Translations under genes and position numbers: made by a program | The notes under the pieces: generated by a model | The model's input: only the letters and a program-made list of their open reading frames with translations | Databases searched by the model: none | What the model was told of the DNA's origin: nothing | DNA from: Bacteroidia bacterium | Lineage (GTDB): Bacteria > Bacteroidota > Bacteroidia > Cytophagales > JAAEPT01 | DNA length: 64,000 nt | Assembly (NCBI GenBank): GCA_030431525.1 | Contig: JAUIJC010000023.1 | Coordinates: 1 to 64,000, forward strand | Direction: 5' to 3' | Shown here: positions 7,409 to 33,945 of the stretch, one piece after another | How positions within the stretch are numbered: the first letter of the stretch is position 1 | Layout: each line of letters opens with the position of its first letter

Positions 7409-9457
7409 ATGAAGGCACCAATTTTCTTTGCCTTGTGGCTATTTTCCTCAGCCATTTTTGCCCAATCCCTCCAATTCGCCCAAGAAGGTCAAAAGATTAA
7501 ATCGTTGGTGGAGTCCTTCCACTATCAGCCTCATGTATTGAATAAAAACTACTCAGAGGCAGTTTTTGACCTCTTTGTGGATGACCTTGATCCGTATCAC
7601 CTCCTTTTTACCCAAGTTGAAATCAACGAATTGAAGGCTTTACAGGGGAGCATTCAAAGCAGCATCGACGAGGATACGGACTGTGAGCTGATTGAAAACC
7701 TCACCCTGCTTTACCCAAAAATCCTTGAGCGGGCACAAAAAAAACTGGAGGGGTTCAACAGCCAAAAACTGAATTTTAACGAGAACGAAAGTTTTTCGCA
7801 GGACGAGTTGCTCACCACCTTTGCGAAAGATGATGCAGCACTCACCATCCGCTGGAAAAAATGGCTGAAGCTTTTTGCCTTGTACTATGGCGAGGATCTC
7901 GTAGCCGAAGATTCAACATTGATCCTGAATTCGGCTTGCGCCAAAGTACATGACAAAGCCATCAACCATTTCAGCTGCTTCCTTGAAGACAGGCAAATTG
8001 AAGAGGAAAAGGTTAATGCCCTACTCTCCTATTACCTGCTTGACGCTTTAGCACACCGCTTAGACCCACACACAGTATTTTTTACGGCTCGTCAAAAACA
8101 GATTTTTGAGTCCTTCCTCTCCACTGAAGAAGAAACCTTCGGCATTTCCTTCGAAAAGAATGAACAGGGAATGCTCATGATTGGAGATTTAGCTCCGGGA
8201 AGTGCTGCTTGGCGCTCGAACCTTCTCCATTCAGGAGATAAAATCAAACGCATCCAATGGGCTGAGGATGATGTAGTGGACCTTGATTGTATTTCGCCTC
8301 AAGGCTTGGAGCAAAGCCTAAACAGCGACCCGCGTCGGGAAATTACCTTGGTCATTCAAACTGATGCTGGTGAAAGCCAAATCCGTTTGGAAAAGGGCCT
8401 GCAAGAAGTTCAGGAGAATACGGTAACCGGCTTTTTGCTCAAAGGCGAAAAAACCATGGGCTATATGGCCATCCCGTCCTTCTACACGGAATGGGCTGGC
8501 GACCGCTCCCAAGGTGTGGCGCAGGACGTGGCCAAGGAGTTGCTCAAACTCAAAATGGAAAACATCGAGGGATTGGTTATCGACCTTCGAGACAATGGCG
8601 GAGGCTCATTGGCGGAGGCAAGCCGCTTTGCTGGCATTTTCATTAATGTCGGACCTCTAGCTTTGTCCAAAGACCAGACGGGCGCCATCGAAATCATCAA
8701 GGACATGAGCCGTGGAAGCATCTTTAACGGTCCCTTGGTGATTCTACTCAACGGAAATAGTGCTTCAGCCTCCGAGATTTTGGCGGGTTCACTGCAAGAC
8801 CACGGTCGAGCGGTGATTGTTGGCGGACAGTCTTACGGAAAGTTTTCCTCCCAAATCGTCCTGCCATTGGACATCCATCCTACCCAACCCGACCTTTCTC
8901 AGGACTTCACGAATTCCAATTATTTGAAGGTGACCATTTCACAGCTCTTCCGTTTGAATGGAGGCAGTTCCCAAACACGTGGCGTCACCCCAGATATTCT
9001 TCTTCCAGATCCGAAGGCACCACACATCACCCGCGAGGTGGAGCACAACTATGTCTTGCTACCCGACTCTGTAGTCAAAAAGGTCTATTTTCAGCCAAAG
9101 GCCTTACCTATCCAAAAACTTCAGGAAAGTAGCGCTGCGCGCCGAACCGCTTCCAAGCACTTTGAACAGGTGGCTCAGCTCAACCAAGAAATCATCGCCT
9201 TGGAAGAACAGGAGATCCCATTGAACGCCGAGGCCTTTCAGGCTTATTCTGATAAGAAACTAACGACCAATACTGCCCTGTGGGACTTGGTTGCCCGAAA
9301 ATCTGAAGCCTTTAAGGTGGCTAACAACTCCTTTGACGAAAGTGTGTTGAGCCTTGATGAAATCAAGCGCCAGCTCAATGAACAACAAAAGGAACATATC
9401 AGCCATGACATTTATGTCGAAGAAGCCTTCGAGGTGCTTTGCGACATGACCGAGTAA
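7409..9457 (+). CDS. Carboxy-terminal processing (tail-specific) protease, Prc-like, S41
   Basis: Periplasmic serine protease of the Prc/CtpA family, which degrades or trims envelope proteins from the C terminus. Signal peptide 1-18 (ends IFAQ). The N-terminal Prc domain (30-230) includes DDLDPYHLLFTQ. A PDZ domain spans about 240-330, and the S41 core has LVIDLRDNGGG at about 389-399. The nucleophile lies in SASASE (451-456) and the lysine partner in GGQSYGKFSSQ (near 477). The C-terminal extension to 682 matches long Prc forms. The next gene starts 24 bases later on the same strand, so the two are probably cotranscribed. Confidence 0.9.
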   Translation: MKAPIFFALWLFSSAIFAQSLQFAQEGQKIKSLVESFHYQPHVLNKNYSEAVFDLFVDDLDPYHLLFTQVEINELKALQGSIQSSIDEDTDCELIENLTLLYPKILERAQKKLEGFNSQKLNFNENESFSQDELLTTFAKDDAALTIRWKKWLKLFALYYGEDLVAEDSTLILNSACAKVHDKAINHFSCFLEDRQIEEEKVNALLSYYLLDALAHRLDPHTVFFTARQKQIFESFLSTEEETFGISFEKNEQGMLMIGDLAPGSAAWRSNLLHSGDKIKRIQWAEDDVVDLDCISPQGLEQSLNSDPRREITLVIQTDAGESQIRLEKGLQEVQENTVTGFLLKGEKTMGYMAIPSFYTEWAGDRSQGVAQDVAKELLKLKMENIEGLVIDLRDNGGGSLAEASRFAGIFINVGPLALSKDQTGAIEIIKDMSRGSIFNGPLVILLNGNSASASEILAGSLQDHGRAVIVGGQSYGKFSSQIVLPLDIHPTQPDLSQDFTNSNYLKVTISQLFRLNGGSSQTRGVTPDILLPDPKAPHITREVEHNYVLLPDSVVKKVYFQPKALPIQKLQESSAARRTASKHFEQVAQLNQEIIALEEQEIPLNAEAFQAYSDKKLTTNTALWDLVARKSEAFKVANNSFDESVLSLDEIKRQLNEQQKEHISHDIYVEEAFEVLCDMTE

Positions 9458-9481
9458 ACTTTTCACCCAATCTATATCCCT

Positions 9482-10519
9482 ATGAAACGAACAGTTTTAG
9501 CATTGATCATGATGGCCGTTGCCGCCCTCATGTCATTTATCCCTGCCGATAACGCACCGAACGCCGGCGCTTACATGGGCAGCATCAACATTGAGTTCGA
9601 GGACATCCAGAAGGAAATGTGGGACTACACCCGTGCTGTGGCCCACAATAAAAGTGCTCGCAAAATTGACAAAAGGAGAACTTCCCTTCTCTCAACAATT
9701 GCCTCTGCACAAAAGCGTATCGCTCGCACAAAAGCCTTTGAAGGTGATGTTTCTTACCGAAACGCCGTGGTTGATTACTTGACCATGAACTACAATATCC
9801 TGAATCAGGATTACGCCAAAATTGTAGACTTGGAGGCCATCGCAGAACAGTCTTACGACATGATGGAAGCCTACCTTATGGCACAAGAGGCTGCCAGCAC
9901 AAAAATGAAGGAGGCGGGTGAAAAGCTTGACAATGCTCAGAAATCCTTTGCCAAGGAGCACGACATTACCTTGACCGAAGGAACCGATAAGCGCGGTGAA
10001 AAACTGGAAGAGGCTGGAAAGGTATTCAACTACTACAACAAGGTTTACCTTATTTTCTTTAAGAGCTTTATCCAAGAGAGTTTTATGCTGGAGGCGCAGA
10101 ATGCTGCTAACCTCAATGAAATGGAGCAAAACAAAGGTGCTTTGAACGAATACGCCAACCAAGGCATCAAGGATTTGGCTGCACTTCCTGCTTATAAAGG
10201 CGACAAAAGCCTGAAGCTTTCCTGCCATGCCTTGTTGAAATTCTACGCTGATGAAACGTCAAAGCACTACGGCAAAATCACCAACTTCTATTTGAAGAAG
10301 GAACGCTTTGAGCAGATTCAAAAATCCTTTGAGGCTAAATCAGAGAAGAAGCGTACGCAAGCGGATGTGGACCAGTACAACAATGCATTGAAGGAATATA
10401 ATGCTGCCATCGAGGCTTACAATTCCACCAATGAGCTTCTTAACAAAGAGCGCTCAGAATTGCTCGATCGCTGGAACAAGACCGTGAAGAAGTTTACTTC
10501 TACTCACGTGAGCCGTTAA
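9482..10519 (+). CDS. Exported alpha-helical protein of unknown function (possibly LIC11966-type surface protein)
   Basis: 345 residues with a signal peptide (1-20, then IPADNAP). The rest is strongly helical, charged and coiled-coil-like, with many Ala, Lys, Glu and Asn and no Cys apart from one near 250. I recognise no catalytic motif. The general pattern (exported, about 350 residues, helical repeats with Tyr-Asn pairs) recalls the family named for Leptospira LIC11966, but I cannot confirm this. It follows the tail-specific protease by 24 bases and ends at a strong terminator, so it may be a partner or substrate of the protease. Confidence 0.6.
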   Translation: MKRTVLALIMMAVAALMSFIPADNAPNAGAYMGSINIEFEDIQKEMWDYTRAVAHNKSARKIDKRRTSLLSTIASAQKRIARTKAFEGDVSYRNAVVDYLTMNYNILNQDYAKIVDLEAIAEQSYDMMEAYLMAQEAASTKMKEAGEKLDNAQKSFAKEHDITLTEGTDKRGEKLEEAGKVFNYYNKVYLIFFKSFIQESFMLEAQNAANLNEMEQNKGALNEYANQGIKDLAALPAYKGDKSLKLSCHALLKFYADETSKHYGKITNFYLKKERFEQIQKSFEAKSEKKRTQADVDQYNNALKEYNAAIEAYNSTNELLNKERSELLDRWNKTVKKFTSTHVSR

Positions 10520-10632: not shown

Positions 10633-11538
10633 TTATTTTCCTCGGATGCGCCAAGTAATGGTCACATTCCTATTCTCTGAGTCGTCACCTTGATCGATAA
10701 GAATTGCCCTTCGGGCCTCAATCTCTCGTTTGATCCACTCCTGCTGTGAAGGAGTGAAACTGGTGCCATTCTCAAAACCAACAACAAAGACACGTCCAGA
10801 ACCTTCTTCCACTCGCACACGGACAATGGCCGTACCCGAAATTTGGTTCTCCTTAATCTCTTGAGGAATCTTAGGTTCAGATAATCTCCAATCCTTCAGA
10901 CCATAGGCACTAAAGCTACTACCCTCACCTCCAGCATCAGGACCTTTGGTTTTGTCATCCCCCTCTTGTCCTCCACCTTCCATATTGAAGGTTTTGGTTT
11001 CCTTGCCTCTTTCAGTACCCTTGTTACCAGCCTCATCATCATCACCCTTTCCACCTCCTGTAGGGAAAGTCTTTGTTTTTGGCTTAGTAACTTCCTTTTC
11101 CTGAGTGTCCTCTTTTGGCTCCTCCTTGGGTTTAGGCTCTGTTTTGGTTGGCTCGGTTTCTTTCGCAGCTTCTGTTGGTGAGTCATCCTCTTGGGTCATC
11201 ACCTCATCCTGCGTGTCTTCCGATGGAGTTTCTTCTGGAGTGGTTTCCTCAGGGGTTTCCTCAGGCTGAACCTCCTCCATTTGCTCCTGCTCCTCCTCGT
11301 ACTGTTCTTCCGCCTCCTCAACAGCCTTCTCCTCGGATTCGGACATTTTACCCATGGCATCATCGCCATAAGTCAAATCCACACCGATTTCCTCAATAGG
11401 TTTTGTACCCTCCAATGCTCCTCCCCCAGAACACATTGCCAACCCAATAAAAATGAGTAGCAACAGGCTGTGGAGCAGAATGGAGACTATCCATGCTCTG
11501 CGTTCGTCGTCCTTATTATGTACGTATGTTCCGTTCAC
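10633..11538 (-). CDS. TonB/TolA-like energy transducer
   Basis: Spans the inner membrane and periplasm and would pass proton-motive force from ExbB-ExbD to the outer membrane. A single transmembrane helix is at about 15-36 (AWIVSILLHSLLLLIFIGLA). Residues 70-200 form a long Glu/Pro/Thr/Lys-rich linker. The C-terminal 90 residues resemble TonB-C (PKIPQEIKENQISGTAIVRV, then a final ITWRIRGK strand). The GTG start at 11538 follows directly after the exbD stop (11539), so translation is probably coupled. The helix lacks a clear SHLS motif; His23 in SILLHS may be its equivalent. Whether it serves Ton-type uptake or a Tol-like role is open. Confidence 0.8.
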   Translation of the reverse strand: MNGTYVHNKDDERRAWIVSILLHSLLLLIFIGLAMCSGGGALEGTKPIEEIGVDLTYGDDAMGKMSESEEKAVEEAEEQYEEEQEQMEEVQPEETPEETTPEETPSEDTQDEVMTQEDDSPTEAAKETEPTKTEPKPKEEPKEDTQEKEVTKPKTKTFPTGGGKGDDDEAGNKGTERGKETKTFNMEGGGQEGDDKTKGPDAGGEGSSFSAYGLKDWRLSEPKIPQEIKENQISGTAIVRVRVEEGSGRVFVVGFENGTSFTPSQQEWIKREIEARRAILIDQGDDSENRNVTITWRIRGK

Positions 11539-11943
11539 TTAATCTTGGGGTTTAACCTCAAAGGAAACTTTCACTTTCAATTCTTTGAGCAGACCCACTA
11601 CTTTGAGCCCATCTCCCAAACGAATATCTTCGTCAGCTTTGATGACAACGGCATCTTTGGAGATATCACCCTTGCTCAACTTTTCCCTCACCTTGCTTCT
11701 TAAATCAACGAATTGGATTTCCTCTTCGTCGATATAATACTTCAAATCTTTAGTGACGATAATTTTCACCTTCTCGTTTTGGGTGATCACCGAATCATTC
11801 ACCTTCGGCACATTCACTGGCAAAGAAGTCGGGGTCACAAAACTGGAGGTCAACATGAAGAAGATCAACAACAGGAAAACGATGTCCGTCATGGAGGACA
11901 TGTTAAATGTTGGGTCAACTTGGTGTCTTGACTTAAGATTCAT
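11539..11943 (-). CDS. exbD: ExbD/TolR family proton-channel protein
   Basis: 134-residue protein with one N-terminal transmembrane helix. The motif SSMTDIVFLLLIFFMLTSSF (about residues 16-35) carries the conserved membrane Asp that takes part in proton flow. The periplasmic domain follows (residues 40-134) with the usual IKADEDIRLGDGLKVV segment. It sits between exbB and the TonB-like gene, 51 bases after exbB and with no gap before the next gene. Could equally be called TolR; the two families cannot be told apart here. Confidence 0.9.
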   Translation of the reverse strand: MNLKSRHQVDPTFNMSSMTDIVFLLLIFFMLTSSFVTPTSLPVNVPKVNDSVITQNEKVKIIVTKDLKYYIDEEEIQFVDLRSKVREKLSKGDISKDAVVIKADEDIRLGDGLKVVGLLKELKVKVSFEVKPQD

Positions 11944-11994
11944 AATTCAATGCGTTTTGCGTTAAAAGTGTTTTTGAAAGCAACTTCTAACGGC

Positions 11995-12684
11995 TTAACG
12001 TGACTCTTGAAGCAAGTCGAGGAATTCTACTGAGGAGTATTCCATTCCATGAAGGATGCGCTGCACACGACCCGATAGGAAGTTGTAGGCTACATAAGCG
12101 ATAATACCTACAATCAAACCAGCCGCAGTCGTCACCATTGCTTCGTTGATACCACCCGCCAAATCACTTGGGCTCACGGCCTGACCTTCTTTCGCAGCAA
12201 TCTCTTGGAAGGCAGAGATCATTCCCATTACCGTACCCAAGAATCCGAGCATTGGTGCCGCACCAGAAATGGTCGCCAAGGAAGAAAGGTTACGCTCCAA
12301 GTTATTCACTTCGATACGACCACGGTTTTCAATCGCGCCTTCAATGGTTTTCAATGGGCTTCCAATGCGCTCCAGACCTTTGCCCAACATCCGTGACACA
12401 GGAGTGTCCACCTGAGAACAGTATTTTTTTGCTTCATCAAGATTGCCAGACAAAACGTGCTTCTTCACATTCTCGGCAATCATTTCTGCATTCTTATTTG
12501 CCTTACCGATTGTTTGCGTGCGCTCCACGAAAATGTAAACCGCATAAATGGACATCAAAAACAGCGGCAAAAATACCCACCAGCTATCCAATAGCACCTG
12601 AACCATCGGATGTTCCATAAAGCTTCCTGAAGACGCAACCACTTCCTCTGAAGAGTCACCCAGCATCAAATTCTGCAACAACAT
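11995..12684 (-). CDS. exbB: MotA/TolQ/ExbB family proton channel protein
   Basis: Three-helix inner-membrane protein that forms the proton channel with ExbD. Helices lie at about 30-50 (WWVFLPLFLMSIYAVYIFVE), 135-160 (ISGAAPMLGFLGTVMGMISA, the family signature) and 180-205 (TTAAGLIVGIIAYVAYNFLS). The ATG at 12684 is preferred; a TTG three codons upstream is also in frame. It is the first gene of an exbB-exbD-tonB-like unit; a terminator just upstream (12793-12838) separates it from the HU/SPOR gene. Confidence 0.9.
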   Translation of the reverse strand: MLLQNLMLGDSSEEVVASSGSFMEHPMVQVLLDSWWVFLPLFLMSIYAVYIFVERTQTIGKANKNAEMIAENVKKHVLSGNLDEAKKYCSQVDTPVSRMLGKGLERIGSPLKTIEGAIENRGRIEVNNLERNLSSLATISGAAPMLGFLGTVMGMISAFQEIAAKEGQAVSPSDLAGGINEAMVTTAAGLIVGIIAYVAYNFLSGRVQRILHGMEYSSVEFLDLLQESR

Positions 12685-12792
12685 GTAAATCAATAATTAA
12701 AGTAAGAAGGATAAGGCCAGTCCTTGCAATCGCACTTTTGTAAAGATTGGCGATTGCTGACATAGCCCCACTAAAATATGCACAAACCAATA

Positions 12793-12838
12793 AAAAAAGG
12801 GATTGTTCCCGAAAATAGTTCGGAAACAGCCCCTTTTA
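12793..12838 (-). terminator. Rho-independent terminator after the HU/SPOR gene
   Basis: On the minus strand, an arm ending GGGGCTGTTTCCGAA pairs with TTCGGGAACAATCCC, with a few G-T pairs, and runs into a T tract. A second small palindrome (ACTGACTTAGTCAGT, 12842-12856) touches the gene end. It implies that exbB-exbD-tonB has its own promoter. Confidence 0.75.
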
Positions 12839-12857
12839 AGGACTGACTTAGTCAGTT

Positions 12858-13928
12858 TTATTTATTGCGAAGAATCCAGACGCCAGAGCCGTATCTCAAA
12901 CGGTAGCCCTGCAATTCTTTCAAGGCTTCATTCCAAGTGCCATAGCTGGAAACTGAAACCCTGTAACGGCCTTCACCTTCAACGATCTCACCGCTGCCCA
13001 TTTTGCCGATTTCTCTTTCAGCCATGGAACGGCGAGCGAATGAACCAACAATAATGTGGAAGTCTTTGGAAGAATTAACCGCTGGAGCAGCTTCCTCGTG
13101 CACTACCGCTGTTTGTTCTCCAGCGGCTGCTTCGTTGGCAAAGTCATCATCCTTAGCTGTCTCGGCCTCTTCATTAGCACCAGAGGTAGGAATCATGGAC
13201 GCCTCACTGTCGGCTACCACCTGATTGTCCTCCACCAAATGATCATCACCACCGTGCTTTTGCTTGTTCATGTACATGAACGTCAAGCCACCAGCCAACA
13301 AGAAAATGACAGCAGGAATGACCAAAAACAATGTTTTCTTCTTTCCTTTCTTTGGCTGCTCCTCGCCTTGTTCCTGAGCTACTGGCTCTTTCTTAGGCTG
13401 CGGCGCAGATTCCGGATTCGATGGAGTTTCGGAAGCTGGCTTGGCAGCCGTAGGACGACGAACAACTGGACGGGGCTGGACAGGTCTGATTCTCTTCATG
13501 TCTTCTTGATCTCTTTCAATGGGTTTGAAAAACAACTCCGGCAGAGCAAAGCTGTCCTCCAAGAAATTCTCTCGGATTTCGGGTTCGAAAAGCAATGTTT
13601 GTTCCTCGCTCAAAAGGAACTTGCCTATTCCTTCCACAAGAAACTCGCCATCTTGGTTCAATGTTTCGCGAAATTTTTCAACGAACTCATTGATTTTGGC
13701 CAAAGCTTCCTCTCTGGAAAGTTGCTCGCCCTGAGCTACTGCATCAACTAAGAGCCCATCATTTCGCTGCAAGCTTTCATTAAAAGCCAAGCGCTTTGAA
13801 GGCGGACGCAAAGCATTTTTCAGGTCATGCACATCGGCGCCCTGATAATCTGCAAGCAAGCCACCCAAGGATGGAATGATAACGCAGTCGTGCTCGTAGA
13901 GCAGTTCTTTAACGTAGTTAAAAACCAT
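12858..13928 (-). CDS. HU-CCDC81-type and SPOR domain membrane protein
   Basis: Bacteroidota-specific architecture. Residues 1-140 are two HU-like (CCDC81-type) domains, opening CVIIPSLGGLLADYQG. A Pro/Lys/Glu-rich linker follows, then one transmembrane helix near 195-217 (LFLVIPAVIFLLAGGLTFMY), an acidic periplasmic linker, and a C-terminal SPOR domain at about 275-355 (FHIIVGSFARRSMAEREI). SPOR domains bind glycan strands stripped of stem peptides at division sites, so the protein probably links a cytoplasmic HU-type domain to septal murein, somewhat like FtsN. It lies 12 bases after the barrel gene, in one transcript with it. Confidence 0.85.
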   Translation of the reverse strand: MVFNYVKELLYEHDCVIIPSLGGLLADYQGADVHDLKNALRPPSKRLAFNESLQRNDGLLVDAVAQGEQLSREEALAKINEFVEKFRETLNQDGEFLVEGIGKFLLSEEQTLLFEPEIRENFLEDSFALPELFFKPIERDQEDMKRIRPVQPRPVVRRPTAAKPASETPSNPESAPQPKKEPVAQEQGEEQPKKGKKKTLFLVIPAVIFLLAGGLTFMYMNKQKHGGDDHLVEDNQVVADSEASMIPTSGANEEAETAKDDDFANEAAAGEQTAVVHEEAAPAVNSSKDFHIIVGSFARRSMAEREIGKMGSGEIVEGEGRYRVSVSSYGTWNEALKELQGYRLRYGSGVWILRNK

Positions 13929-13940
13929 TTTAGATAACGT

Positions 13941-15584
13941 CTAAAACGAGTAAGTTAATCCAACTAAGGTATTTATTCCCTTATTTGGATAATACAGATA
14001 CCGCTGATACTTCTGAGAAGCAATGTTATTCAACTGCCAGAAAATGGACAATCGATTATTCCAACGGTAATCAATAGCCAAGTTAATGTCGATGATGCCA
14101 TCCAATTTGGTATCCACACCATCAAAATCACGGCCGTACAGCCCACTAAGATAATAAATCTCAGTATTTAGCAAGACTTTGTCCTTGATTTTGTAGCCAC
14201 CATATAAGCTTGCCGTAAAGTTTGGACGATGATAGGCTTCAGACAAGGTCTTCAAGTTATACCCAACATACTCCCCTTTCAGTCCAAGCTCGAAGGCTTT
14301 TCGCATGTACATCAACTCTCCTGAGATTCTTCCCAAGATGGCGCGATCGGTCTCGTATTCAACATCAAACTTTTCTGGATTCAGGGAGTCGTTTACAAAG
14401 AAGTAGAGGTTGTCATAATTCTGCACTCCCGCACGAAGCTCAAAGGCAAAATGCTTGGCAAACCCTCCACGTACTCCTCCATACACATCCCATTTCCGTG
14501 TGCTGTTGAACAGTGAAATATTCGTATCAAGAAAATGGTTTTCCCAGGCCAACTGCCTGTAGTTCACATGGTCAACTCCACCTGTTAGACCTGCAAACAC
14601 ATGCAAATCATGAGGTTGGTTGATTGTGAAATCCACCTGTAAAACAGGGAAAACGTGAAAATCGTTCTTATCGCCAATGGTGTCGTTTTCGTAGGTGAGG
14701 TTGGCACCTGCCCGAATATCAAAGCCATCGAACACAAAATCATAGTATGGCGTGGCACCAACTTGAATACGGCTGATGCCGTCCCCTTCTGAATATTGAC
14801 CAAAGAAAGTCTGGATATCCAAGCCCAAAGAATCATTTCCATTCAAGGCATAAACAGGACGCGCGCCCAAGGCGACTTCAAATTCTTGGTTCTCAAAAGA
14901 GTTGTTGATGAAATGAAGTCCTAAGTTTCCGTCATAGTCAATGCTGGACTTTGGGTTCAAATTCTTCACCCCGACATCCGCGCGGAAAAGGTTGTAAACA
15001 ATCTTCTCTGGTTCAGAAGGAAACAATGAATCAGAAATAGGCAATTCATAAACGCCATAATAGCGCCCTCCCCAACGGTCATAACCAATGGAGCCCGTCC
15101 ATTCGGCATTCCGCTGGAAGGACTTTCCGTATAGCTCCAAATTCGTCTCGCTTTCCCGAGAATCCTTCTTCCTTACCGGACCTCGCAAAGAGGACAAATG
15201 ACGAGCGTAAACGCCCCACGCCATATCCTTGTTCCGCTTGGAATTGAAATGCCCCTCGGCATAAGGCGTGGTGTAATTACCAAAACCCGCACGGACATAG
15301 TTGCCCCACAAGGCCGGCTTTTTATCCGGCTTAATGCCGTAAACCCTGTAGGATGGATCCAACGGGCTCAATGGCAAATTATAGCTCTTGAGCTGAAAAG
15401 TCTGAGGAGTTACCTGTTGCTCCTTTCGCGGTGGAAGGTTGACCTTGTCGTATTCGCGACGGGCTGTATCCAAACTCACCCCAAGCTCATAGGTCTGCTC
15501 AAACTGTGTGACACTATCCTCCTGCCCCATCACCAAGAACGGGGAGCTCAACGCAAGGAATAGAAGCAATAATCGGCTATACAT
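13941..15584 (-). CDS. Outer-membrane beta-barrel protein (TonB-dependent-receptor-like, no plug)
   Basis: 547 residues with a signal peptide ending LVMGQ and a short periplasmic N-terminal region. Then many amphipathic beta strands with aromatic girdles run to a C-terminal LVGLTYSF, the usual outer-membrane barrel ending with Phe. No plug domain or clear TonB box is seen, so ligand import is doubtful. It sits between the large TPR protein (upstream, 133 bases) and the HU/SPOR protein (downstream, 12 bases), which suggests it anchors a trans-envelope assembly in the outer membrane. Confidence 0.75.
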   Translation of the reverse strand: MYSRLLLLFLALSSPFLVMGQEDSVTQFEQTYELGVSLDTARREYDKVNLPPRKEQQVTPQTFQLKSYNLPLSPLDPSYRVYGIKPDKKPALWGNYVRAGFGNYTTPYAEGHFNSKRNKDMAWGVYARHLSSLRGPVRKKDSRESETNLELYGKSFQRNAEWTGSIGYDRWGGRYYGVYELPISDSLFPSEPEKIVYNLFRADVGVKNLNPKSSIDYDGNLGLHFINNSFENQEFEVALGARPVYALNGNDSLGLDIQTFFGQYSEGDGISRIQVGATPYYDFVFDGFDIRAGANLTYENDTIGDKNDFHVFPVLQVDFTINQPHDLHVFAGLTGGVDHVNYRQLAWENHFLDTNISLFNSTRKWDVYGGVRGGFAKHFAFELRAGVQNYDNLYFFVNDSLNPEKFDVEYETDRAILGRISGELMYMRKAFELGLKGEYVGYNLKTLSEAYHRPNFTASLYGGYKIKDKVLLNTEIYYLSGLYGRDFDGVDTKLDGIIDINLAIDYRWNNRLSIFWQLNNIASQKYQRYLYYPNKGINTLVGLTYSF

Positions 15585-15620
15585 CGAAATGTTAAATCTA
15601 ATGGGTCAATTAAGTATCAA

Positions 15621-15690
15621 GTACAATGTATCGTGTATTATGACCTTAGTCATGGGACAATCATTGTACTTGATACACGATACATTGTAC
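15621..15690. repeat. Inverted repeat, GTACAATGTATCGTGTAT type
   Basis: Eighteen-base exact inverted arms at 15621-15638 and 15673-15690. The loop contains a further small hairpin (ATGAC-CTTA-GTCAT). It fills the gap between the TPR and barrel genes and may reduce read-through. Related to 33869-33945. Confidence 0.85.
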
Positions 15691-15717
15691 AAATGACCAG
15701 TAGTCTGGGACGTCTCC

Positions 15718-18700
15718 TTATTTGTCGTCAATATCCAATTCCTCCGGCTCCTCCAACAAGTCCTCATCGCTACCTTGCTCCGTAGGTTGTTCTTCCACTT
15801 TCCCGCTTTCCAAGTCAATCTCTTGAACTTTCTCTTTGCGGGCCTCAGCCTCTTTGTCGTCCAGCATTTTAATGCGACGCTTGGCTTCATCCACCACTTC
15901 TCCACCTGGGAAATAATCCACCAAAGACTGATAGGTTTCACGCGCTTGGAAGTCCTCGTTCATCGATTCATAGCTCTCACCAATCAACAAGAAACAGTTA
16001 CCAACCCACTCTGGATAGGCCATAAAATGGTCTGACGAACGCGCCAAGGTATCAATGGCTTCCGAATACTTCTCTTGGTCATAGAGTACTTTACCAGCCA
16101 TGTAATTGGCTTCGGCGCCATTCTCATCCTGAGAAGTCTGCATCAGCTCCACAAAACCGGTGTAAGCCAAGTCCAGATTACCTTTTTTGTAGTTGGCTTT
16201 CGCCTTATACAGAGAAGCCTCAGGCTTATGTCCACCAGCGGCAATCAATTGATCGGCAAAGGTCTTGGTGGAATCATATTGGCCCAAAGCATAGCAAGAT
16301 TCCATCAGTCCCTGAAGGGCTTTGCGCTGTTGCGACTGGGAAGTAACAACTTCCAACCACTTTTCGTGATAGGTTTTGGAATCGGGATAATCCTCAACAT
16401 GGGCGTTCAAACGCGCCAAGCTGCGGACTGTTCGCATGTAGTTTGTTCCTGCACCTTCTTTCAGCAGCTCCTCGAAACGCCTCTCCGCTTCATCGTAATT
16501 CTCCAAGCTATAGTAGGAATCACCCAAGAAATAAAGCGCCTCTCCACGCTTCTTGCTCTTTGGATACTTGTCGAGGAAGTTTTCAAACTTGCCTACTGCC
16601 TGATCGTAATGACCGTCGTAGAAGAAACGGACAGCACCATCGAACACCAAATTCTCAGTCGTCTCGGAATTCGGGTTACAGCTGGCGTAATCATCCTCCA
16701 ACTTGTTATAGCGATTGATCTTTGTATTGTCTGAAGAGCCAGGCTGAATCAAAAGCTCACGAGCCACTTGAATGGCATCATTGGCCGCAGGGTTGGTACA
16801 ATAAAGGGAAAGGATAGTTTCCATATCCTCCAACGCCAACTTCTCATCGCCACGGTTTTGGTAAGAGATTCCGCGCTTCAGGTAAGCCAATGGAATCAAC
16901 TCGCTATTCTTCTCCTTATTGATGAAAAAGGTAAAGTGCTTGGAGGCATCAGCGAAGCGCTGATTTTCATAACTCAAGTTTGCTTTCTTGTAAGTCGCCT
17001 CCGTTCTGTATGGCGACTCCCCAAACTCTTGGATAACGATGTCATAGTTTTTAGACGCCTCGTCAACATTACCCTGACGTCCCAACACTTCTGCTTTTCT
17101 GAGGTGTGCATAAGCACGTCCTCTCCTGCCAGAAGCAATGGCCTTGTCATAACTTTTCAAGGCTTGGTCATAATCCCTCAAGAGGAAATTACAATCCCCG
17201 ATTCTCAACAATGCGTTTCCGTAATGTTGACGGTCCCGTTGGTTCTCCAACTTTTGGGCGTAAACCTCAAAGTGCTGTAGCGCTTTTCGGTACTGCTCTT
17301 GGCTGGCTTGCGCATCGCCTTGCTCAGCCAAACGACCAGCGGCATTGAAATAGGAATAACCAATGCCGTAGCGTGATTTCAAATGATATTCGGAATTCGC
17401 CTCGGCATTTCTGAAAACAGCAGCGTAATCATTCTTGGCCTCGTCCCACATGTAGCGTCTGGACTTGGTCTCAGCCCTCCAGAAGTAAGCTTGAACCAAA
17501 AGGTCCTTGTCATATGGGTAGCCAATGGATTTTGTAAAGTAATCCATCGCCTCCTGCGTGCGGCTCTTATTGAACATTTCCGTACCACGGCGGAAAGTTA
17601 CTTCTTGATAAGCCTCCTTGATGGATTCACTCTTATACCCCAAGCTTTCGATATACTTGATGGCCTCCTCGTAGTCGTTCGTATGGCGATAGGATTGAGC
17701 TAACAACTCCTTGGATTCAGAACCATGCTTGCTGTTCGGAAAGGTCTGCTCAAAGTTTTTCAGGGTCTTAATCGATCGATCATAGTTACCCTGCTCATAA
17801 TGAAGCTTGCCCAAGTCAAACATGGCTGATTCCTTCACTCCTTGGTGGAAATCAGCACGAGAAGCCGCTTCCAAAGCCGACAACGCATATTGTTTGTTAT
17901 CCAAAGCCAAATAGGCCTCGCCCAAATAATAAGAAGCAAACTGCCCCAAAGAATCCTCAGATGAAGCCACCTGTTTCAGACTCTCAGCAGCCTCCTCATT
18001 GTTTCCCAACTGAAGGTTGGAATAACCCAAACGATAAAGTAGCTCAGGGTCCTTCTTTCCTTTCTTGGCATATTCCTCCAAGTACTTGGTAGCCTTCTCG
18101 TATTCCTCACGGTCGAAATAGGCACTTCCCACCAAACCAGCAATCTTGTCGGCATCTTTCACCTTTTGGTTGCTCTCCAACAAGGGAATAGCATACTCCA
18201 ACAACTTGTCCTTGTTTTCGCTTTGCTTGTAGTAAATCAAGCTCTTCATATAAGGCACTACAGCCTTATAGGTGGCATTCTCACCAGCAATATCAAAATC
18301 AGCCAATGCCTCAGGATAGTTGCCTTTTTTCTCGTTGATAACACCAGAATAGTAGGCTGAAGCGTAGGTGTACTTGTTCTTCTTCACATCGTGCTTGAGC
18401 ACGTTGAACAATGGTGCGGCCTTATCCACCTGTTTGTCTTGGTAGTACGCATAAGCCAAATTGAATTTGGCAGCCTGCTCCTCCTCAGCGCTCAACAAGT
18501 CCAAGTCAGCCTCTTCATAATATTGAATGGCCTTTTCCCACTTCTTCTTATTCCAGTAATAATTACCGAGATCAAAGTAAGCTCGCTTAGAAAGCGGATG
18601 ATGTGGATGCTCCTGAACAAAGTCTTGGAACATCTGCTCGGCCACGGGCTGATCGAGATTCAGGGCACAATTCGCCTTGTAATACTCAGCATTGACCCGC

Positions 18701-18897
18701 TGGAGCTCATTGGCGTCCTCACTGGCCAAATACCGATCGAAGGAGCGGCTGGCCGCCCCATATTTTTGCTTCTCCAGCAACTCCGTCGCACGACGATAGT
18801 GACGCTGCCCATTGGTTTCCCATTGGGTGTTTTGAGCATTGAGAGAAAGGAGGGTTCCGCAGAACAGCAGAATTGAGAAAAGAAACTTCTTACGCAT
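15718..18897 (-). CDS. Large periplasmic tetratricopeptide repeat protein
   Basis: 1059 residues from the ATG at 18897, chosen because it opens a signal peptide (MRKKFLFSILLFCGTLLSLNAQ shortened at NAQ). The frame is open 35 codons further up but that part is not signal-like. Almost the whole length is TPR helices (YxxGNYxxAIxxY-type units), broken near 660-690, with a charged C-terminal tail rich in Glu and Asp. It would be a scaffold in the periplasm, in the manner of CpoB/YbgF but far longer. It is the first gene of the TPR-barrel-HU/SPOR unit. Confidence 0.85.
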   Translation of the reverse strand: MRKKFLFSILLFCGTLLSLNAQNTQWETNGQRHYRRATELLEKQKYGAASRSFDRYLASEDANELQRVNAEYYKANCALNLDQPVAEQMFQDFVQEHPHHPLSKRAYFDLGNYYWNKKKWEKAIQYYEEADLDLLSAEEEQAAKFNLAYAYYQDKQVDKAAPLFNVLKHDVKKNKYTYASAYYSGVINEKKGNYPEALADFDIAGENATYKAVVPYMKSLIYYKQSENKDKLLEYAIPLLESNQKVKDADKIAGLVGSAYFDREEYEKATKYLEEYAKKGKKDPELLYRLGYSNLQLGNNEEAAESLKQVASSEDSLGQFASYYLGEAYLALDNKQYALSALEAASRADFHQGVKESAMFDLGKLHYEQGNYDRSIKTLKNFEQTFPNSKHGSESKELLAQSYRHTNDYEEAIKYIESLGYKSESIKEAYQEVTFRRGTEMFNKSRTQEAMDYFTKSIGYPYDKDLLVQAYFWRAETKSRRYMWDEAKNDYAAVFRNAEANSEYHLKSRYGIGYSYFNAAGRLAEQGDAQASQEQYRKALQHFEVYAQKLENQRDRQHYGNALLRIGDCNFLLRDYDQALKSYDKAIASGRRGRAYAHLRKAEVLGRQGNVDEASKNYDIVIQEFGESPYRTEATYKKANLSYENQRFADASKHFTFFINKEKNSELIPLAYLKRGISYQNRGDEKLALEDMETILSLYCTNPAANDAIQVARELLIQPGSSDNTKINRYNKLEDDYASCNPNSETTENLVFDGAVRFFYDGHYDQAVGKFENFLDKYPKSKKRGEALYFLGDSYYSLENYDEAERRFEELLKEGAGTNYMRTVRSLARLNAHVEDYPDSKTYHEKWLEVVTSQSQQRKALQGLMESCYALGQYDSTKTFADQLIAAGGHKPEASLYKAKANYKKGNLDLAYTGFVELMQTSQDENGAEANYMAGKVLYDQEKYSEAIDTLARSSDHFMAYPEWVGNCFLLIGESYESMNEDFQARETYQSLVDYFPGGEVVDEAKRRIKMLDDKEAEARKEKVQEIDLESGKVEEQPTEQGSDEDLLEEPEELDIDDK

Positions 18898-18929: not shown

Positions 18930-19073
18930 GCAGAAATGCCCCAACAAAAAAGGAGATGGCCGTCCTCCTCACTGAACTGGACTGCGATTTTGGCCAGCTC
19001 AACTCCCCTTGCCAATTTCCAACCCACTGAGCCGTTATAAAGGCAATTGTCTGAAATAGAAGCCTTAGGCCTT

Positions 19074-19463
19074 ATGATTACTCAACGATTCAACTCCCAA
19101 GACCACATTCTTACCATTTGTCCAGAAGGAAAAATAACTCCTGAAGACATTCAAGGTTTGGAAAACAAAATGGATTTGTTGCTTCGGAAATACGGGAAGC
19201 TCAATGGTGTTTTGCTCGACCTCAAGGAAGTTCCCTTCTGGAATGGGTTCAAATCCTTTATGGCGCACATGCGTTTTATCAAGGCGCACCACAAGGACAT
19301 TGACCGATTGGCAGTAGTTACCAGCAAACATTTCCTTGGTCTTATTCCATGGATGGCTGATTACTTCACCACAGCCGACTTGAAGTATTTCAAGGAGAAT
19401 GAGCGCAACCTTGCGTTTATCTGGCTAAGGGATGAAACGCAGGAGAAACGGAAGGTTTCATAG
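19074..19463 (+). CDS. SpoIIAA-like (STAS/SEC14-fold) cytoplasmic protein
   Basis: 129 residues from the ATG at 19074; a TTG nine codons upstream is the only other option. The pattern of EGKITPEDIQ, GVLLDLKEVPFWNGFKSF, then DRLAVVTSK and a final LAFIWL fits the SpoIIAA-like family of SEC14/STAS fold, which are small cytoplasmic proteins of unclear role. It diverges from the TPR gene and is followed by a composite repeat. No partner is visible nearby. Confidence 0.72.
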   Translation: MITQRFNSQDHILTICPEGKITPEDIQGLENKMDLLLRKYGKLNGVLLDLKEVPFWNGFKSFMAHMRFIKAHHKDIDRLAVVTSKHFLGLIPWMADYFTTADLKYFKENERNLAFIWLRDETQEKRKVS

Positions 19464-19707: not shown

Positions 19708-22700
19708 TTATCGAGCGATGGTGACTGTTCCTCGGAAGGACTGTGAACCGCCGTTTGGTTCCAGTACGAAGAAGTAAACGCCATCCGGCAACTCCTTTCC
19801 TTCTCTGGTACCGTTCCAAGGCTCATAGCCGTTGTATTGCTCATGCACCAAGTTACCCCAGCGGTTGAAGATTTGAATGTGCATCTGAGGATACACCTCC
19901 AAACCTGTGATAATCCAAGTGTCATTGTATCCATCACCGTTTGGCGTGAAGGCATCAGCGAATTTGATGGACTCCGTCACGGTGAGGTTGTACTTGATTT
20001 CAGTACTACACAAGCCTTGATTTGTGAGCGTCAATGTTACTGTAGAAGTTTCAGTTGGGTAGCCTTTTACATACAGGTCTCCTTCCTCCAAAGCAACTGC
20101 TGGATCAATGTTCCAAACATAGCTATCATAAGCAGAACCCGCAGCCTCAATCGTGGCTTCATCGTCCTCAATGATAAAGTAGTTCGGGTCAGTGATAAAC
20201 GCTCCTTTTGGAGTCTCAACAACATTTACCGTCAGTTTATTCGACTCCACTTCCGTTGGGCAAGAGCCATTGGCTAAGGTCACATAATAAACACCTGACT
20301 GCGACAAATCCACTGAATCCACTTGGTACTTTTCACCTGTAGCAACCTGGCCTGTTGGCTCAAACCACCAAGTAGCATCATTAACATCAGCGACAGCATC
20401 AACAACCATCAACTCCAAGGCATCATTTTCACAGATGCTTACTTGATCTTGCTTGCCATCCAAAGTTTGAACAATTGGGCTTGGGTTAGGATAGATAGTA
20501 ACAGTGGCTGTAGCCGTTTCCTCATTTGGTGTAACTACACAAGGTGCACCAGAACTTACCTTCACTTCAAGTACATCCCCATCCATCAACTGGTCTCCCT
20601 TGGAGTAAATGAAACTTGTTTCATCAAACTCTTCAACGCCATTCTTTAACCACCTATATGACGGGGATTCTGTGCCTTTAGCATCTGCCAACATGAATAC
20701 AGGCAACCCTTCACAACCCACAAAATCTTCAAGGGAAACCTCTGGAACAACATTCGGAGTCACATTGATTGTCAAAGGATCCGAAGTTATCAAAGGCGTT
20801 GTTACACAAACATCAGCATCAGTAATGATTACCTCCAAGGACACTTCCACATTTCCACTCGTTAAACTACTTATCTCCAGCTCCTCTGGCTTTGTGGTCG
20901 TTTGATTCAGGTTATTAATCTTCCAAATATAATCCTGAGTTGCACCAGCGTTCTCAAGACTCTTAATCGAAATGACAGCCTGCTCGCCCTCACAGTAAGC
21001 TCCAATCTTATCAGCCTCAATCGTAACTTTTGGAATAGCCAGCGGTGTTACATCTGCGATAATTGTATTTGTCGAGGTGACGACCTGACTCCCAACCACA
21101 CAGGTCTCACTTACAGTCAAGGTAGCCTTTACGATGTCACCATCCAGCAAATATGATGGGGAATAGGTATTTCCAGTATGCATAGATGCATTGTTCACAA
21201 ACCATTCAACAGTGGTAACACCTGCACCCTCTTGAACTGGAGTTGCAGAGAAATTGATGTTATCCCCCTCACAAACTGGCATCCCTGTAGTGGCTTGGAT
21301 AGTAACGGAAGGATCAAGCTTTGGAGTGTATTTGGCAGTAAGCGGATCAGAATCATCAAATGGCAATGTAGCACATGCCGAAAGGTTCTCCATTTTCACC
21401 ATTACAGTCTGGCCATCAGTCAGCACCATACTGAAGTTTTCCCCAGTCTGAGTAGTTATGTTATTATCAACATACCAAGTAAAGGTGGTTAGTCCATCCT
21501 CCTTACCTTCAGCCTTCGTCACTTTAGCTTCAAATGGTGAACCCTCACAAATTGGACTGGAAGAAGTTTCTATAATTTCTACAACTGGTATTACAGCACT
21601 CGTCACCTTTATCTTCTCAACATCAGAAGATACCTGCGCTGTGGTGATACAACCTGCATCACTTGTCATCTTCACATACACCTCATCACCATGATTCAAA
21701 CTCACCGGAGTGTACTTGTCATTGGTTTCCAAAGACTGTTCAATAGTGTTCAATACCCATACAAACGTTGGACTTGTTCCTTCATTCTCCATATTTACAA
21801 CACTGAAGGTTGTGGATGGAGATAGATCACATAGCGTATTTGCAGCTGCAATGATTTCCACTTTTGGTTCCTGCGGAGCATTAACCGTCACACTTGCTGC
21901 AGAGGCATTAGCCGCATCCGTTGTCACACAAGTTTCCGAAACGGTCATCTTCACCTCAACCACATCACCATTATCAAGAGCGGATGTCTTATACTCAGTT
22001 TCAGAACCTGTTTGGACAGAAATGGTATTCACAAACCACTCAAATTGTGGGTCAACCCAAGTACCACCTGAAGGAACAGCCGTATAGGTTACCTCATCTC
22101 CTTTACAGATGCTTGATTTATCCACTTGAATAGATACATCTGGTATGGCTGGAGGACCGACATTGATGGTCACCTCATTAGAAGTTGCTGTCGGGGATGT
22201 AGTACAAGTCTCTGAACTGGTCAATACCGCAGTCACCTTGTCACCATTTGTGAAACCTGTGCTCTTGTACTCGCTTCCATTACCAACAGAAGTAGTTCCG
22301 ACAAACCACTCATAGGTCGGACTTGAGCCTGCATTGTCTTCTGAATCAATGCTGAAGATTACCTCCTCACCAGTACAGATACTTGTTTTGTCTGCAATAA
22401 TCTGAATATCAGGAGTCAAGTTTGGATTAACCTTGATTGGAACTTTATTAGACTCAACCGTTTGGGTGGAAACCACGCAGGTCTCATCAACCTTCAACTT
22501 CACATGAACCTCCTGACCATCTGTCAATGATGATGATTTAAAAGTTTCATTAGTTTCTCCTGCCACTGAGTTTCCAGCCACAAACCACTGATAGGTTGGT
22601 GAACTGCCCAAACCAGATTTACTGTCAATAGAGAAACTTACTTCCTCACCTTCACAGATGGTCGTCTTATCAGCTGAAATTGTAATCGATGGGTCAAGCT

Positions 22701-25700
22701 TGGTAGTCACATTCACAGTAACCTCATTGGATGCTACCGGAGTATTTACACAAGCCTCTGCGTAAGAAACCTCAACAGAAATTTTCTCACCATCAACTAA
22801 GTCTGTGCTGTTATAGGTTGCTGAATTCGAACCAACATTTCCATTCACAGATGACTTCCACTGGTAGGTCGGAGTCGTTCCTCCATCAGTAATTGTCGCA
22901 GTGAAAGTAACATCAGTACCCTCACAGATATTGTTGACATCCTCGGCAACATCCACCTTTGGATCAATTAAATCTACACGGGTGATGGTCACATCATCTG
23001 TCTTGTCCAAACAGTGCCCGTTTACACTTGAAACAGAATAAGTGAAAATGTTATCACCAATCACCAAACCCGTGGCGTCATTTCCTGAAAGACTTGCAGA
23101 AGTATTCACAGACCAAGTACCACCAGTAACTGCACCTGGGTCTAAGGTGATGTTACCTACACAAATGTTTTGGTCAGTAGTTACGATGCTTGGCTGAGAT
23201 GGCTCGGCATCAATCGTTACAGTGATGGCATCTGAAACCTCGAAACAGGTACTTTCTGCTGGATCCTCAGCACGCACCGTAATGGTGTGGGTACCAACAC
23301 CCAAAGCCATTAATTTGTCATTTCTCAAAATTGTAGAATCCTCTCCAGAGTGAATTTCGACACTCCCACTCAACCAAACATAGTTTGCTCCAGCATCAAC
23401 ATTTGTAGCTGTAAGTGTTTGTACACTTTCGTCTTCACATAATTCCAAGTTTCCTTCTGCTATGCCAGGTTTACTTGGCTGGGTGCAGACTACACAACTT
23501 TTCGCAGTCACATCCATGGTCAGAGGGAAGCATCCCTCTTGTGGGTAATAAGTACCTAAGTCTTCAAACTTTAAATTCGTAAAAGGAATCTCCGCACCAG
23601 CAGAGATACTTACATATCCTGGAATAGATGTCGTGCCAGCTCCATTAGCCATTAAAGAAACATTCGGTATAGTCATAGTGTAACTACCTGGCTGTAAAAC
23701 TGCGTTTACAACAACTTCATTATTCTCACCTCCTCCATTAGCAGCAACAACTGAAACAGGGATGGTCTGACCAGAAGGACCTGTAATTTCTAAATTACCA
23801 TTGTAGAACTGTCCTTGAGCAGGACATGAATTTGTTAACCTAAAACAACTCGTTTCAAAGGACACAAGCCTTACTGGTTTATTAACAGTAAAACTAAACG
23901 TCGAAGGACCTACATACGCCAAACTATTACCTCCTAAAACTGGTGTCAATGCACTAGGAGCTACTTTATCAATAGTCAATTGAATAATATCTCCTTCAGA
24001 AATGGAACTTGGTGGAGTCCAAGAAAGCACATCATTTGGTGCCTGGATTCCTAAAGAATTCCCACCATAAAACCACTCCCATTGATTGCCATCACCGAAG
24101 GATAACTCATTCGACTCATTCAAACATATTTCTTCTATCTCGGGTCCATCAATCTGTAGATTAATGGTGTTTGAAGTCGTTTGACAGCTTACATCTAATG
24201 GCATATTAGCATCCCTCACCTCCACGAAGTAGGTCCCCTCTTCTGTTAGAGTAAATACCCCACTTTCATTCGTTTCAACAGCTGCACCATCCTTCCAAAG
24301 TTCGTAGGAAAACTTGCCTACCCCCCCAGTTACAGTAGTAAGGTTGTAACCTGAAAGAATGGCATTTTCACAAACGCTGACGTTGCCATCAATATTGACA
24401 CCCTTATTTCTTAATTGAGCGCTTTCAGGATTAAAGCAGGAAACCAAACAGCTTGGATCTTTCAATACCGTCACAGAATCCTTCAATGTACACTGAGGGT
24501 TATCTTTATTGATAGCCGTGACTACATAAGTGACATCCTCATTGTCCAACACTGGTGCCTTGCCGACAAACTCAGTTGGGGTCTGACTTACTTCATTAAC
24601 GGCAGGAGTCCATGCAAACTCATAAGCTGGAGGATCATAAGGACATGAAACGACGTAAAAATCTTCTTCTACGATCTCCCCAAACTTTACATTGTTTTTA
24701 GGCAGAGGTACGGTTATTAATTCATTGTCATCTTCATCAAAAAGTTTTGTTTGATAATCATCACCTATTGAACCGTTATAAGTCGCTAAAGTGTGCCCAA
24801 AGAAAATGGTATCCCCTGAATAAAGTTGAAACTCATGTTCAAATATCTGAGCATTAGTACTAACACTATACTTAGAAGGTGCAGGATATTCTTTGGTGTA
24901 AAAATCAGAGATTTGTTCGCCTCTGGAAGTCCTTACAGACGCCCTGTACGAAAAATTCCATTGAAACGTAACTGGGTTCCAAGTTTTTACTTTCCAAGTA
25001 CATGGTTGAGGCAACTCTTCGATTTTAGCCTCAATATCTGCCACACAGTTATCAATATTGACTAATTCAGCTTCTACATACTCATTAATTTCAGTATTGT
25101 AGCCTACTACAATATTGGTAAAGGCTTTACAATCAGAATCCAGAAGATCCGTCAATTCAAAGGAATAAGACCCATCCCTTAACCCTTCTATCAACACAGT
25201 ATTACCCGAGGATGTAAATGTCTTTTCAACTACACCCAAGGTAGTACTTGCTTCATATTTCACCTCATAATTAGCTGGTGCATCGGTCAAGGTTAGAGTA
25301 ATCGACCCTTCACTGGTTCCTTTACATTCAGTATTTATAGCTGATGATGAAGCTCTAAATGGACATAGTGAACAGTCTTCACTTTTTACCCAAAAACCAT
25401 TTGCATTCCTTGGGTCTTTACAAGGGTTATCATCATTGACACCTATTCGATAACAATTCCCCTCATCATTACAAATTTCAGCTCCATACGAGGCCTCTTC
25501 TGCCACCGAAGGAGAAATCACCAATTCCCTTTCTGTAGAGATGATAGTCGTTGGATCATCATTTCTATACCATTTGAAAGTAGGGTTGCTTCCTCCTCCA
25601 CTTTCAACTACTAATTCAAGTGTAACGGATTCTCCAACACATAATTCTGTATTACCCGAAACTATCTCGATACTACCGTATGGCACTTTGTTACCAGAAC

Positions 25701-26913: not shown

Positions 26914-27070
26914 AGGACTATCATTGTTCCTTAACACATCCATGCAATTTACCATATTGCCTTGGAATAAGTATATCTACTTTCTATGGGAAATGTAAAC
27001 ACCTTGGAAATGATTAAAAGTTCGAACAACCCTCAAAAAGAGACCTTTTTGTAAGATTCTGAGCAGTTCA

Positions 27071-33868: not shown

Positions 33869-33945
33869 GTACAATGTATCATGTATCATGTACTATGACA
33901 GTTCACACGGGCTTCATAGTACATGATACTTTGTACTTGATACAC
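33869..33945. repeat. Inverted repeat, GTATCATGTACTATGA type
   Basis: Exact 16-base arms at 33883-33898 and 33914-33929, with a wider weaker match out to 33869 and 33945. It is related in sequence to the 15621-15690 repeat. Lies between guaA and the LpoA-like gene. Confidence 0.82.

Follow-up and report, generated by a model that had tools for sequence, protein, structure and literature searches.

Introduction

The described systems closest to the locus analysed here include Tol-Pal (TolQRA-TolB-Pal-CpoB), the Ton system with its TonB-dependent transporter (TBDT), and PorE. Tol-Pal keeps the outer membrane in position during cell division. The contact between TolA and TolB is the same strand augmentation as that between TonB and the TonB box (PMC8928145). 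A 2025 survey found tol-pal loci to be absent from Bacteroidetes and proposed PorE as a substitute (PMC12204202).

We have analysed a stretch of 64,000 nucleotides from a Bacteroidia bacterium (the window), in which an earlier sequence-only reading had proposed that six adjacent minus-strand genes encode one trans-envelope system, analogous to Tol-Pal and with an energised ExbB-ExbD-TonB part. All six genes were confirmed at the coordinates given below, and the proposal of a single energised system gains from the finding that composition and gene order are conserved across the phylum. With Tol-Pal the locus shares a predicted 5:2-type motor, a transmembrane (TM) transducer, a TPR protein, a putative wall-binding part and an outer-membrane end, but instead of the TolB propeller and Pal it encodes a barrel integral to the membrane, plus a SPOR protein, and Pfam searches of the locus gave no OmpA-like protein such as Pal among the six products. 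The TPR protein of the window has 1059 residues, four times the length of CpoB (263 residues in E. coli), and scores 44.9 bits with the CpoB model, below its cut-off of 383. Among NCBIfam models, the window ExbB scores 98 bits with TolQ against 57 with ExbB (97.8 reached for a TolQ cut-off of 221), and the window ExbD scores 50 bits with TolR against 38 with ExbD (TolR cut-off 127); all four scores stay under the model cut-offs. The likeness to Tol-Pal holds for an energised trans-envelope analogue but not for Tol-Pal itself, as the genome is without TolB.

The Ton system has in common with the locus ExbB-ExbD-TonB, a 22-strand TBDT barrel and, in most homologues, a TonB-box-like strand; here, in contrast, the plug is missing, the TPR and SPOR partners are fixed and substrate-uptake genes were not seen. 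PorE, a CpoB-TolB-Pal-like fusion, resembles the locus in its proposed role, the coupling of outer membrane and wall without Tol-Pal in Bacteroidetes (PMC12204202), whereas it is a single lipoprotein associated with type IX secretion (T9SS), without a motor of its own and of unrelated architecture.

Gene order and conservation

The HU domain was searched across the phylum, about 20 kb was fetched around HU matches and around homologues found with profiles, and open reading frames were classified by profiles which, the barrel profile included, had been built from syntenic members only. Apart from the window, 16 loci have the complete order TPR-barrel-SPOR-ExbB-ExbD-TonB, and about 50 further loci have part of it (TPR-barrel in 17, barrel-to-TonB in 11, ExbB-ExbD-TonB in 9, and others). 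The order is kept over families in which the barrels are only 12–36% identical, and the genes are closely packed, with median gaps of −1 bp between TPR and barrel (49 loci), 15 bp between SPOR and ExbB (37 loci), 3 bp between ExbB and ExbD (50 loci) and 5 bp between ExbD and TonB (39 loci). Carriers with names include Rhodocytophaga, Fulvivirga and Cyclobacteriaceae. Judged by sequence comparison, the retention of gene order in families so far apart greatly exceeds what chance would give. We conclude that the six-gene system is real and widely conserved, and a search of open-licence papers turned up no previous account of the locus as a system.

The earlier reading had taken frequent separation of two units in related genomes as evidence against one system. 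Such separation does occur: in families f5–f10 of the same class TPR-barrel is usually unlinked from ExbB-ExbD-TonB, and in several class families of this kind the HU/SPOR gene has other neighbours; yet these genomes contain the two units all the same. The observation therefore argues against one obligate operon and not against one system, and the six parts very probably belong to a single system.

Flanking genes were also recorded. A Mur-ligase-type (FolC-like) gene follows TonB in three loci (L081, L159 and L145), in linked and unlinked arrangements, and in L081 HolA lies before TPR. Two loci of family f22 (L063 and L054) have FtsK upstream (confirmed by Pfam in L063), together with a product without a Pfam match and an LPG-synthase-TM protein, and their TPR gene is elsewhere in the genome. 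In the window itself, genes for a tail-specific S41 protease and, after it, a LIC11966-family surface protein (7409–10519, plus strand) are convergent with the six-gene locus, a SpoIIAA/STAS-like protein (19047–19463, plus strand) is divergent from the TPR gene, and positions 19708–26955 of the minus strand encode a 2415-residue protein of Ig repeats that carries a CHU_C signal for type IX secretion at its C-terminus. No RNA elements from Rfam were found in the 64,000 nucleotides.

The outer membrane barrel

The second gene (13941–15584, minus strand) encodes a 547-residue outer-membrane barrel with a signal peptide and a C-terminal Phe. The sequence-only reading had rightly called it an outer-membrane barrel but had missed its type, which a profile, an AF2 model and Foldseek together identify as that of a TonB-dependent receptor without a plug. 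The window barrel has no Pfam match of its own, and direct sequence searches of the PDB with the single window barrel or the HU/SPOR protein gave nothing useful. The barrel profile (A1), when run against the PDB, finds TonB-dependent receptors (FpvA, 7e-10); individual members match NCBIfam receptor models, and PF00593 is detected by Pfam in 3 of 26 members. The AF2 model (pLDDT 71) has 22 strands by count from residue 96 onward, with residues 1–93 unfolded and of low confidence. With this model the best Foldseek match is BtuB (4e-16, TM about 0.6), and all 50 matches listed belong to the TonB-dependent-receptor family. The Plug domain PF07715 was found in none of the 26 barrel homologues at E ≤ 0.1, in a search in which an ordinary TBDT, used as control, matches Plug at 5e-27. 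According to sequence and model, then, the protein is a TonB-dependent-receptor barrel without its plug, which makes the machine as much Ton-like as Tol-like.

Most barrel homologues carry a short TonB-box-like strand directly after the signal peptide, for example IELPDFVITG (L122), LPEFVITG (L119), SEEIVVTT (L062), PQDIEIRS (L056) and GVIDVVK (L103). The pattern occurs in 44 of 64 barrel N-termini compared with 3.5 ± 1.9 in shuffles, figures that serve as description and not as a blind test, since the pattern was picked after the sequences had been viewed. The N-terminus of the window barrel aligns at the position of the box and is degenerate there, with no clear TonB box. Family-level comparison supports both a TonB-box-like strand in most lineages and, as described below, a TonB-type C-terminus in the transducer.

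The motor and the TonB-like transducer

The ExbB/TolQ-like channel subunit (11995–12693, minus strand; PF01618, 2.7e-31) belongs to a subfamily of its own in the tree. Its channel residue Thr154 is invariant in the alignment (18/18). The ATG at 12684 is the more likely start, over the TTG at 12693. In the ExbB tree the window copy lies in a clade of 54 (support 0.90–0.98) that leaves out the two other ExbB genes of its own genome as well as TolQ and ExbB of E. coli; nor does it include the ExbBs of family f15. Members of the subfamily are found in 68 of the 84 genomes with the TPR protein and in 1 of the 34 without it, counts in which kinship is ignored. The ExbD/TolR-like axle (11539–11943, minus strand) matches PF02472 at 1.1e-23 and has the channel residue Asp20, invariant in 15 of 15 aligned sequences.

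The last gene (10633–11538, minus strand) encodes a TonB-like transducer of 301 residues in which alignment and an AF2 model indicate an N-terminal TM helix with an SxxxH motif, an acidic/proline-rich spacer and a TonB-type C-terminus. The window protein, C-terminus included, has no Pfam match of its own; TonB_C is matched by 8 of 15 homologues, and the C-terminus in the window is recognised only through these relatives. The AF2 model is poor (pLDDT 47), with a strand-strand-helix-strand arrangement at the C-terminus. The residues SILLH at the start of the TM helix agree with the SHLS motif (PMC8928145) in its S and its H, and the [ST]xxxH motif is kept in only 20 of 45 TonB homologues. Some TPR-positive lineages (loci L118, L120, L124, L129 and L135) are without this ExbB subfamily, yet their TonB adjoins the barrel or SPOR gene, indicating that the transducer is tied to the barrel and not to the motor.

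The HU/SPOR protein and the intergenic elements

Between barrel and motor lies the gene for an inner-membrane protein of 356 residues (12858–13928, minus strand), with two HU-CCDC81 domains (residues 1–127), a mid TM helix and a SPOR-like C-terminus, as assigned from Pfam and alignment A6. The HU domains of the window protein are clear (PF18174, 1.6e-18; PF18175, 1.8e-19), and HU-CCDC81_bac_2 is present in 16 of 19 homologues. SPOR is matched by Pfam in 12 of the 19; the window's own copy is unmatched and is recognised through its relatives only. The ligand of SPOR domains is denuded glycan at the septum (PMC6895207). The tandem HU-CCDC81, TM and SPOR architecture is that of known HU-CCDC81/SPOR proteins, which differ in that here the gene sits in a motor/barrel locus and that the HU half is lost in relatives within Cyclobacteriaceae/Flammeovirgaceae. 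Three such loci (L077, L079 and L081) encode TM and SPOR only, so that the constant part of the protein is TM plus SPOR and the HU half is optional. The domain make-up read from the sequence earlier does not extend, in its HU half, to the whole family. That the core function might be to tether the chromosome by way of HU was considered and rejected on the absence of HU from these three loci.

An intrinsic terminator lies 3′ of the HU/SPOR gene, between it and ExbB (12791–12837, minus strand). Its fold has an energy of −28.3 kcal/mol (z = −5.2), a value that 200 shuffles failed to reach, and a T-run follows the hairpin. Its strength makes the two transcripts proposed from the sequence credible in the window, but the short SPOR–ExbB gaps in relatives mark the split as a local feature.

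A palindromic repeat with 18-bp arms, GTACAATGTATCGTGTAT, occupies positions 15621–15690 between TPR and barrel, with no strand assigned. The palindrome occurs at 88 places in its own genome with at most 2 mismatches, against 0 for the reversed control; the arms are often paired about 60 bp apart, and another copy lies near window position 33869. A regulatory role for it between TPR and barrel was rejected, given some 88 copies across the genome; this REP-like element is probably not part of the machine.

The TPR scaffold and its distribution with respect to TolB

The first gene of the locus (15718–18897, minus strand, with its start at the ATG at 18897) encodes the 1059-residue TPR scaffold, which has many Pfam TPR matches and is predicted to be periplasmic from a type I signal peptide (MRKKFLFSILLFCGTLLSLNAQ). 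TPR and barrel each start with an apparent type I signal peptide, whose last residues are AQ or GQ. With a strict cut-off and with kinship ignored, the TPR family is present in 84 of the 118 genomes of the phylum sample and in 227 of 237 genomes of the class, almost always in one copy. TPR and full-length barrel occur together in 81 of the 118 phylum genomes, TPR only in 3 and barrel only in none.

TolB has a different distribution. The genome that holds the window gives no match to PF04052 or to a TolB profile made from four sequences of family f16 and E. coli TolB. Full-length TolB is found in all 26 genomes of f16, which lack the TPR/barrel pair, and in no genome with TPR (0 of 84). In f16 the genes for TolR, TolA and TolB are consecutive and are accompanied by a Pal-like gene (loci L141 and L142). 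The FMO protein, a green-sulfur marker, is present in all four f16 genomes tested, and the family apparently represents green sulfur bacteria. Eight genomes (those of families f11, f14 and f27, and G014) have neither TPR nor full-length TolB at the cut-offs used, and those genomes of f14 and f27 that were tested carry FMO.

The non-overlap of TolB and TPR in these genomes is the pattern expected of a replacement, and it amounts to about one evolutionary event because essentially a single clade underlies the exclusion. The pattern agrees with the published finding that Bacteroidetes lack tol-pal (PMC12204202).

Alternative explanations

One alternative is dedicated transport, in which the barrel is an open pore derived from a TBDT that exports or imports a large substrate with its own TonB, the TPR protein is a periplasmic adaptor that could guide cargo, and SPOR is only a wall anchor. 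The ancestry of the barrel, by profile and by Foldseek, is indeed that of a transporter, and a report on Myxococcus describes a TBDT, Oar, as needed for export of the protein PopC (PMC6434023). There is, however, no plug for TonB to displace; no conserved cargo, SusD-like or uptake gene was noticed in the loci, where the flanks (HolA, FolC-like, FtsK) vary; and the barrel system is single-copy and near-universal, unlike nutrient TBDTs. We regard dedicated transport as unlikely. Outer-membrane biogenesis, with lipid, LPS or outer-membrane proteins moved between the membranes by TonB force, would suit the near-universality and the giant periplasmic scaffold, and the TPR protein does score against BamD and LapB models; but these scores reflect generic repeat similarity, Pfam finds lipid-transfer, Lol, Lpt or BAM domains in none of the six products, and the SPOR component would be left unexplained. 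We regard this reading, too, as unlikely.

An accessory role in type IX secretion or gliding is suggested by a near-identical spread in the phylum sample, in which 83 of the 84 genomes with TPR have SprA. GldLM is the known T9SS motor. The two markers nevertheless come apart in both directions. Eight phylum genomes have SprA without TPR, and in the class TPR is kept in six of seven SprA-negative genomes (G002, G319, G145, G178, G230 and G167), the seventh, of 0.5 Mb, having neither. These six argue, on genome content, against the machine being a T9SS accessory, and we hold such a role to be very improbable. Both kinds of mismatch can be seen within family f60, where G254 and G277 have SprA without a TPR match while G145, G178 and G230 have TPR without SprA. 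Finally, the locus might consist of ordinary neighbours, an unrelated TPR-barrel pair next to a standard iron-uptake exbBD-tonB set, as the unlinked units and differing HU/SPOR neighbours of several class families would allow. Chance or unrelated adjacency was rejected on the gene order, held at very low identity in many families; moreover, loci that have lost ExbBD retain TonB next to the barrel, and the ExbB clade is separate from the genome's two other ExbB genes. We find this explanation hardly credible.

Proposed mechanism and role

Our own reading is that the six genes encode a machine driven by the proton-motive force, a Ton/Tol hybrid, which provides energised coupling of outer membrane and wall during constriction and so does the job of Tol-Pal in Bacteroidota; we put this forward at about even chances. 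We infer that the six proteins interact physically. ExbB-ExbD would be the inner-membrane motor, powered by the proton-motive force, and the dedicated TonB would reach across the periplasm and attach, in most lineages, to the TonB-box-like strand that the barrel carries at its free N-terminus. The pull on this N-terminus would be exerted by strand augmentation, like that of TonB on its receptor and of TolA on TolB (PMC8928145), and that TonB acts on the plug-less barrel in some such way seems to us rather probable. As the plug has been lost, the pull would not be spent on opening a nutrient gate; it may instead be handed on to the outer membrane as well as to the giant TPR scaffold, which would be attached to the barrel or lie next to it. 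By binding denuded glycan, the TM+SPOR protein would bring the assembly to the division septum (PMC6895207), with the net effect of an energised outer-membrane/wall coupling at constriction in place of Tol-Pal.

The septum enters this scheme mostly through the SPOR domain, and the position of the locus downstream of FtsK in family f22 (L063) hints weakly at division. We consider a role in constriction plausible, and a division role for the machine is a suggestion that we make tentatively, at slightly less than an even balance. More speculatively, the machine may represent a third phylum-wide class of force transducer beside Ton and Tol, in which a plug-less TBDT serves as a fixed anchor, a dedicated TonB with a giant TPR protein and SPOR constricts the outer membrane, Tol-Pal has been replaced in most Bacteroidota and the HU domains, where kept, may provide a tie to the chromosome; we think this possible rather than probable.

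Bacteroidota are a dominant phylum of gut, soil and sea, and how they attach and constrict their outer membrane without Tol-Pal needs explaining. There is a good case that the six-gene machine is what most of them use in its place, and the locus offers a concrete, motor-driven candidate with named genes for that job. If this is true, a TonB-dependent receptor has been turned from a nutrient gate into a mechanical anchor, and if the machine is essential it would be a weak point specific to Bacteroidota.
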